From NCBI GenBank assembly GCA_017792365.1, contig CP051229.1, forward strand, positions 2,604,001-2,668,000: 64,000 nt of DNA, read 5' to 3'. Under the pieces are notes generated by a model. The model worked only from the letters and a program-made list of their open reading frames with translations. It searched no databases and was not told the DNA's origin. Position 1 is the stretch's first letter, and the number at the start of each line of letters is the position of its first letter. The stretch comes from Hyphomonas sp. (lineage in GTDB: Bacteria; Pseudomonadota; Alphaproteobacteria; Caulobacterales; Hyphomonadaceae). Of the stretch, positions 14,541 to 64,000 are shown piece by piece. The translations under genes and the position numbers were made by a program.

Positions 14541-14613
14541 TGCCGCCTAGGTGACTTGAACACCTGACCCCCGCATTACGAATGCGATGCTCTACCAGCT
14601 GAGCTAAGGCGGC
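14541..14613 (-). tRNA. tRNA-Thr (anticodon CGT)
   Basis: The minus strand folds into a complete cloverleaf: acceptor GCCGCCT/AGGCGGC, D stem GCTC/GAGC, anticodon stem TCGCA/TGCGG with loop TTCGTAA, and T stem AGGTG/CACCT with loop TTCAAGT. Anticodon CGT at positions 34-36 reads ACG (Thr). Discriminator base A. The CCA end is not encoded. Confidence 0.96.
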
Positions 14614-62528: not shown

Positions 62529-62669
62529 GACCTGCTTCTCGCCTCCGCCCGCCGCGCCCGCAAGTGCGCGGGCCGTTCGCCAGGCGCAAGACATGAGAAA
62601 TCCCGCCTCCCGGTTCGGGGAGAGGCGGGATTGGTCTCGAATGGCTGGCCTTTATGGGCCCTTCGGAGT

Positions 62670-63068
62670 TTAGGCGGCGCCTGCGTCCGAATTGTCGTCC
62701 TCGAGCGCTTTCGCAAGGTCAAGCAGGCGGCGGCGCGGACGTTCCGACAGGCGGTAGTAGGCGCGCACCAGCTCAAGCGTTTCCTTCTGCGAAAGGATGT
62801 CGCCCGACAGGCGGTCGGCGGAATCGTTGGCCGGGGCCGGCTGGCCGTCGGCGGCGAGACCGTCGAAGAAATAGTTGATGTTGACGTTCAGCGCGTTCGC
62901 GAGCGCGAACAGGCGGCTCGAGGTGATGCGGTTCGCGCCACACTCATACTTCTGAATTTGCTGGAACCGCACGCCAACCTGGACCGCGAGGTCCTGTTGC
63001 GTGAGCCCAAGCAGACGGCGACGGCGACGAAGCCGCTTGCCGACATAGATATCCACGTCCGTGGCCAT
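62670..63068 (-). CDS. XRE family helix-turn-helix regulator
   Basis: A 132-residue protein with an N-terminal HTH (KRLRRRRRLLGLTQQDLAVQ, then VGVRFQQIQKYECGANRITS) and a C-terminal helical domain (LVRAYYRLSERPRRRLLDLA). This is the short SinR/PopR-like type common in Caulobacterales. The role is unknown. It lies divergent from the candidate small RNA. Confidence 0.88.
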   Translation of the reverse strand: MATDVDIYVGKRLRRRRRLLGLTQQDLAVQVGVRFQQIQKYECGANRITSSRLFALANALNVNINYFFDGLAADGQPAPANDSADRLSGDILSQKETLELVRAYYRLSERPRRRLLDLAKALEDDNSDAGAA

Positions 63069-63309
63069 TTACTCTACTCCCGATCCGTCGGCCCGTACCA
63101 ATTCGAGACCGTCGCTGGGGAGGGAGCAAGCGGCGCGCCAACCATCGGGCGAACCGCCGGGCGAACCGGATTCAACCCATGCGTGCTGCAGCGCAGCATC
63201 GGCGTCCTCAAAGGCGCCTCGGGGCTGCTCATGCCTGACTGAAAAACTTGCAGAACTTCGCGTTTCCGTCGCGCACTGCGCAGTTTCGCCGCACTGCAGT
63301 AAAATGCCC

Positions 63310-63337
63310 TTGCTTGTTTTGCGGTGCAGCGTAAATT
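63310..63337 (+). promoter_or_regulatory. Putative small-RNA promoter
   Basis: TTGCTT (63310-63315) and TAAATT (63332-63337) are spaced by 16 nt. The transcript would begin near 63344. Confidence 0.45.
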
Positions 63338-63343
63338 GGAGAT

Positions 63344-63425
63344 GTGGCGCTTAGGCGTCACTGCCCTTTTTGGGCGTTTCCTCCCTAATACCTTTGGCCG
63401 CGCCGGCTACGGCGCGGCCTTTTTC
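63344..63425 (+). ncRNA. Candidate small RNA with exposed CCTCCC and intrinsic terminator
   Basis: About 82 nt from the putative start to a strong terminator. It has a small GCCC-TTTTT-GGGC hairpin (63363-63375), an unpaired stretch holding CCTCCC (63380-63385), an anti-Shine-Dalgarno sequence, and the terminator GGCCGCGCC/GGCGCGGCC (63396-63419) followed by TTTTT. No plus-strand protein gene precedes it. The terminator loop overlaps the stop codon of the gene on the other strand. Confidence 0.5.
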
Positions 63426-64000
63426 TTTGCCTGAACGCCGCCGTCGCCAAACCCGGGCCGTCCCGAAACGCCCGCCGCGGCCCGCGTGAAGTCGCACAAT
63501 TCCTCTGCAATTTCAGACAGGTGACGCCTCAGGCGCACGATCCCGTCATGCGGCTCGACCTCGTACTCGTCGAGATAGAGGCTGCGCTTGATCTCGATCT
63601 GCAGGGCGTTGCGGCCACGCCCCGGCTGGCCGTGCTTCAGCGTCGCGAACCCCCCGGCGTACGGTGTGTTCCGATTGGTTGAATACCCGCGCTCGCGGAA
63701 CAGCGCCTCGACGAAATCGACGAAATCGCCGTCGCAGGACGCGCCATAGCGGTCCCCGAGCACGATATCAGCGCCGCCGCCGGCCTGCTGGCTCTCGCTC
63801 GGCATCGAATGGCAGTCGACCAGCCAGGTCTTGCCGAACATGGCCTGCGCCCGCCGGAGCAGGGCGTCGAGCGCCTGGTGGTATGGCCGATAGACGTCAT
63901 CCAGCCGCGCCGTCGCCTCCTCGGCGGCGAGCCGTCCGCGATAGATTCTGACGCCCCTGTGCGCCGTCCGCGGAATGCAGCCGAGCCCCGCCGCGACGCG
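63407..64000 (-). CDS. N-formylglutamate amidohydrolase-like protein (5' end beyond the window)
   Basis: The C-terminal 197 residues are visible; the start lies past position 64000. FGase motifs are present: GLGCIPRT at the edge, MFGKTWLVDCHSMPSE with a zinc-binding CH, and LQIEIKRSLYLDE. Such enzymes hydrolyse N-formylglutamate in histidine degradation or related formyl/acyl amino acids. The end is a short basic tail (GVQAKKKAAP) whose codons run into the plus-strand terminator. Confidence 0.85.
   Translation of the reverse strand, partial: RVAAGLGCIPRTAHRGVRIYRGRLAAEEATARLDDVYRPYHQALDALLRRAQAMFGKTWLVDCHSMPSESQQAGGGADIVLGDRYGASCDGDFVDFVEALFRERGYSTNRNTPYAGGFATLKHGQPGRGRNALQIEIKRSLYLDEYEVEPHDGIVRLRRHLSEIAEELCDFTRAAAGVSGRPGFGDGGVQAKKKAAP

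Follow-up and report, generated by a model that had tools for sequence, protein, structure and literature searches.

A probable αr8 (MmgR/SisA-type) small RNA in Hyphomonas sp., with a PhaR-type box in its predicted promoter

Near the end of the 64,000-nucleotide stretch of Hyphomonas sp. DNA analysed here (the window, on contig CP051229.1), a promoter-like sequence is followed by a compact unit of hairpins that closes with a T-run. Does this unit encode a regulatory RNA, is such an RNA new, and how may it act and be controlled? Our reading is that it is the genome's single αr8 trans-acting small RNA (sRNA), which would silence mRNAs through Hfq and anti-Shine-Dalgarno (anti-SD) pairing and would itself be repressed by PhaR; our overall confidence in this explanation is about 0.9, with the PhaR part as its least certain element.

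Family membership and genomic context

A cmscan comparison with Rfam 15 returned a plus-strand match to RF00519 (suhB, described as MmgR) at 63356-63434, which reaches 67.6 bits (cutoff 41; E 8.5e-12), covers the model from end to end (positions 1-77 of 77) and is the sole member of the family in this genome. The unit at 63344-63424 (+) is almost certainly a member of the αr8 (MmgR/SisA-type) family, and it is an ordinary member of an already known family rather than the founder of a novel one; a new RNA family is ruled out by the match to RF00519. The original prediction had presented the RNA as novel, a claim that falls because the suhB element was first published in 2005 (Corbino et al., PMC1273637), is catalogued as RF00519 and has functionally characterised representatives, namely MmgR of Sinorhizobium meliloti and SisA-D of Caulobacter crescentus (PMC12559287). 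The locus resembles the published suhB element (PMC1273637) in being an sRNA with a promoter, a short 5' helix and a terminator, in its many alphaproteobacterial copies and in the conserved residues of its unstructured regions, with no difference of substance. Members above the cutoff occur in 54 of 61 genomes from the same family and order, and in 179 of the 389 genomes of a sample drawn from the class.

Other known RNAs were also considered. Weak cross-matches to BjrC1505, RcsR1, SorX and others were rejected, since even the best of them attained no more than roughly half of the respective gathering score. AbcR1 and AbcR2 (αr15) share with the RNA described here a CU-rich anti-SD motif and, by inference for the latter, Hfq dependence, but they are longer (114-120 nt) and occur as tandem copies near lsrB; where an AbcR RNA is expected to have about 115 nt and two anti-SD motifs, the present unit has about 80 nt and one, and a permissive cmscan of the locus gave no AbcR-named match. 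The only other Rfam match in the window is a tRNA gene at 14541-14613 (-).

The RNA is convergent with a gene for N-formylglutamate amidohydrolase (FGase; 63407-64000, minus strand, running off the window; PF05013, E 4.5e-46). This neighbour adjoins 28 of the 30 best αr8 loci of the order, and a single αr8 copy beside the FGase gene is the state found in most species (PMC12559287). The closest counterpart in C. crescentus is SisA, the αR8 copy beside the FGase gene, which is alike in family, neighbour, 10-mer and Hfq; C. crescentus, however, has four siblings (SisA-D), whereas this genome has a single copy. The upstream neighbour encodes an HTH (XRE-type) transcriptional regulator (62670-63068, minus strand; PF01381, E 9.1e-13) whose nearest named relatives belong to the Hyphomonadaceae. 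A gene of the SuhB-like inositol-phosphatase family lies two genes from the sRNA, as for the suhB element (PMC1273637), and close relatives likewise have the HTH gene upstream and, beyond it, the inositol-phosphatase gene. Between these two genes lies a strong inverted repeat, ATCCCGCCTCCCGGTTCGGGGAGAGGCGGGAT, at 62600-62631, which is probably a terminator or a processing hairpin; it also includes CCTCCC, but placed where pairing is possible.

Transcript and promoter

The predicted transcript spans 63344-63424 (+), that is, about 78-81 nt; its start was placed from the -10 element and from S. meliloti mmgR, with a precision of about 3 nt. It folds at -45.3 kcal/mol, against -27.3 kcal/mol for shuffles of the same composition (z = -6.0), and this fold together with the bit score against a curated RNA family confirms that the observed elements exceed chance. 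Two hairpins precede the linker, and not one as had been proposed. Stem-loop 1 (63344-63361, 7 bp) lies mostly outside the RF00519 model, which begins within its 3' arm. Among 20 distinct relatives, both sides have changed in six of its seven pairs, and 90.6% of the cells are paired. Covariation scores 0.813, whereas shuffled sequences give 0.197 and sliding the arms gives at most 0.186. This covariation is stronger evidence than the stem counts, because the stem of at least 5 bp seen in this part of 36 of 38 relatives is also reached by 47% of shuffles. It also argues against an alternative start at 63347, with which the predicted stem-loop 1 would keep only 4 bp. Stem-loop 2 (about 63362-63376, TGCCC/GGGCG) is the weak hairpin of the family and appears both in the RF00519 consensus structure and in the minimum free energy fold.

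Downstream lies the 10-mer UUUCCUCCCU (63377-63386), the predicted seed, which is unpaired in the predicted fold and identical to the αR8 10-mer of PMC12559287; the CCTCCC within it (63380-63385) is likewise unpaired, in keeping with the single-stranded state proposed for it at the outset. The intrinsic terminator (63396-63424) consists of a stem at 63396-63419 and TTTTT at 63420-63424; the T-run was correctly predicted, while the stem has 10 bp instead of the 9 bp initially counted. The stop codon of the FGase gene (63407-63409) falls inside this terminator, which thus overlaps the final codons of that gene, as had been anticipated. With stem-loop 1, which is conserved and covaries strongly, the number of stem-loops in the transcript comes to three; this agrees with published accounts of MmgR, and stem-loop 1 is not a new feature. 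S. meliloti MmgR (αr8, RF00519) is alike in its length of about 78 nt, its three stem-loops, its anti-SD motif and its terminator. More generally, family membership, conservation and covariation back the proposal of a plus-strand sRNA of the base-pairing type that has its own terminator and leaves a C/U-rich anti-SD segment exposed. The candidate also passed the suggested check, which asked whether relatives conserve the hairpin, the CCTCCC and the terminator.

The promoter-like TTGCTT-N16-TAAATT that had been pointed out is present (TTGCTT at 63310-63315, 16 nt, TAAATT at 63332-63337), although the -35 element is better read one position earlier, as CTTGCT (63309-63314, +), which makes the spacer 17 nt long. 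This reading aligns with the CTTG that most αr8 promoters in the order have, and the -10 element TAAATT (+) aligns with a TA-rich hexamer in relatives, whose promoters combine a CTTG-type -35, a TA-rich -10 and a spacer of about 17 nt. As a generic sigma-70 consensus scan of the region found no promoter, the promoter call rests on this conservation.

The predicted promoter also carries a candidate site for PhaR (AniA), a repressor that senses granules of stored carbon. The spacer holds the box TGCGGTGCA (63320-63328, +, within a 21-mer at 63314-63334), which fits the YGCRNYGCR core of the PhaR motif from S. meliloti, and two further PhaR-type boxes, CGCACTGCG (63272-63280, +) and CGCACTGCA (63290-63298, +), lie upstream; such paired boxes are also seen in several other αr8 promoters of the class. 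In S. meliloti, purified PhaR binds the site in the mmgR promoter, which ends 13 nt upstream of the transcription start, and a change in its palindrome abolishes binding (PMC12542648). The spacer box is placed here as that site is, between the -35 and the -10. The core motif is short and common, with 101 matches within the window; of the six matches of the exact 12-mer pattern TTTGCRNTGCAG in the genome, only that in the αr8 promoter lies outside a long open frame. Of 38 αr8 promoters taken from the order and its surroundings, 32 have the PhaR-type box, where dinucleotide shuffling predicts 2.9; of 33 from class genomes that possess PhaR, 25 have it, where 3.5 are predicted. These counts were drawn from related sequences and hence not from independent trials. 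In genomes without PhaR, three of seven αr8 promoters still have the box, a sample too small to weigh either way. Whereas the four sis promoters of Caulobacter have no common motif (PMC12559287), the FGase-linked copies examined here share the PhaR-type box. Judging from this conserved box, direct control of the αr8 promoter by PhaR in this strain seems likely. The annotated locus represents a conserved regulator outside the two model species, with its predicted promoter, full transcript and likely control.

Mode of action and alternative readings

By analogy with characterised relatives, the αr8 RNA would bind Hfq, whose gene is present in this genome, and the 10-mer UUUCCUCCCU would, as has been shown for SisA, pair with purine-rich ribosome-binding sites (here of the GGGAGGAAA type), thereby blocking translation and promoting the decay of mRNAs for carbon metabolism and transport. 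Such Hfq-dependent anti-SD pairing is highly probable. The conserved box further suggests that PhaR would repress the αr8 promoter in the absence of polyhydroxybutyrate and that granules, by sequestering PhaR, would release the promoter, so that the RNA would rise as carbon is stored. A listing of exact or near-exact 10/11-mer sites in this one genome gave, unranked, candidate target sites directly before the starts of three genes, whose products are a PQQ-dependent dehydrogenase (GGGAGGAAACGAATG, contig positions 2881308-2881318, minus strand), a membrane protein with DUF6644 and an unassigned protein of 273 aa. Sites of the target pattern number 69, against 25 for the reversed pattern, an excess that carries no weight as evidence because ordinary Shine-Dalgarno sequences predict it.

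Three other readings of the locus deserve consideration. An as yet undescribed sRNA might resemble αr8 only through a shared anti-SD-like segment, given that CU-rich segments of this kind turn up repeatedly in alphaproteobacterial sRNAs that are unrelated, AbcR among them (PMC7143759). The RF00519 match, however, is full-length and takes in hairpin, spacing and terminator, the FGase neighbour is typical of the family, and stem-loop 1 and the promoter box are conserved; the covariance-model match and the synteny refute this reading, to which we give hardly any credence. No more credible is that the hairpin and T-run merely terminate an upstream plus-strand gene or serve the convergent FGase gene, with no separate RNA. 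The terminator does overlap the FGase 3' end, and an open frame of 97 codons on the plus strand ends at 63354, but this frame overlaps the start of the HTH gene in antisense and ends within stem-loop 1, and a conserved promoter lies directly upstream of the RNA. The entire 80-nt unit is conserved, and not the terminator alone, stem-loop 1 covaries, and this whole-unit conservation rules out a plain terminator.

The remaining alternative accepts the αr8 RNA but supposes that it chiefly titrates, or is titrated by, another RNA instead of silencing mRNAs. This has a precedent in Caulobacter, where the αR8 core 10-mer pairs with targets as well as with the sponge RNA CrfA, and CrfA antagonises SisA-D through that same 10-mer (PMC12559287). 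SisA, however, represses mRNAs directly as well, and the genome holds only three exact AGGGAGGAAA sites, of which one is simply the RNA's own antisense and another lies directly before a start codon. We regard a sponge pair as very unlikely, and retain the reading of an mRNA-silencing αr8 RNA.

PhaR and αr8 across the class and in this genome

The most useful by-product of the analysis is an association of αr8 with PhaR across the class. The survey took in 389 genomes of the class with a completeness of at least 95% and scored αr8 at E ≤1e-6 and PhaR by PF07879. Both were detected in 168, the RNA only in 12, PhaR without a strong αr8 match in 82 and neither in 127 (Fisher p = 2e-31), and among 61 relatives the corresponding numbers are 53, 2, 1 and 5 (p = 2e-5). 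These p-values overstate the association, because the genomes share ancestry and because the small ones often lack both. The co-occurrence across the class is a lead only. It is conceivable, if somewhat doubtful, that the link between PhaR and αr8 seen in S. meliloti goes back to the ancestor of the class and that PhaR and αr8 have tended to be kept or lost together; if so, αr8 RNAs would generally serve as an output of PhaR, the sensor of the storage polymer. Were the class-wide box and co-occurrence upheld, one could test for a general role of αr8 RNAs in coupling carbon storage to translation, in species other than S. meliloti.

In S. meliloti, MmgR also has an NtrC input and an effect on phasins. 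The latter may not apply here, because a search of this genome for phasins (PF09361) found none. The genome does encode PhaC and two PhaR-type loci. One of these lies beside phaB (contig positions about 1676400-1677100), and appears split, with its PF07879 and PF05233 parts in different reading frames, probably as a result of assembly indels or sequencing error; a PhaR-type box, GTGCAGTGCAGC, is found upstream of this split phaR. The other encodes a second, divergent PhaR-type protein of 190 aa, which scores 99.5 against the TIGR01848 cutoff of 109.45. Its locus (contig positions 3378164-3378337) adjoins an alpha/beta hydrolase gene near phaC, and several close relatives also have a second PhaR-type match of similar score.
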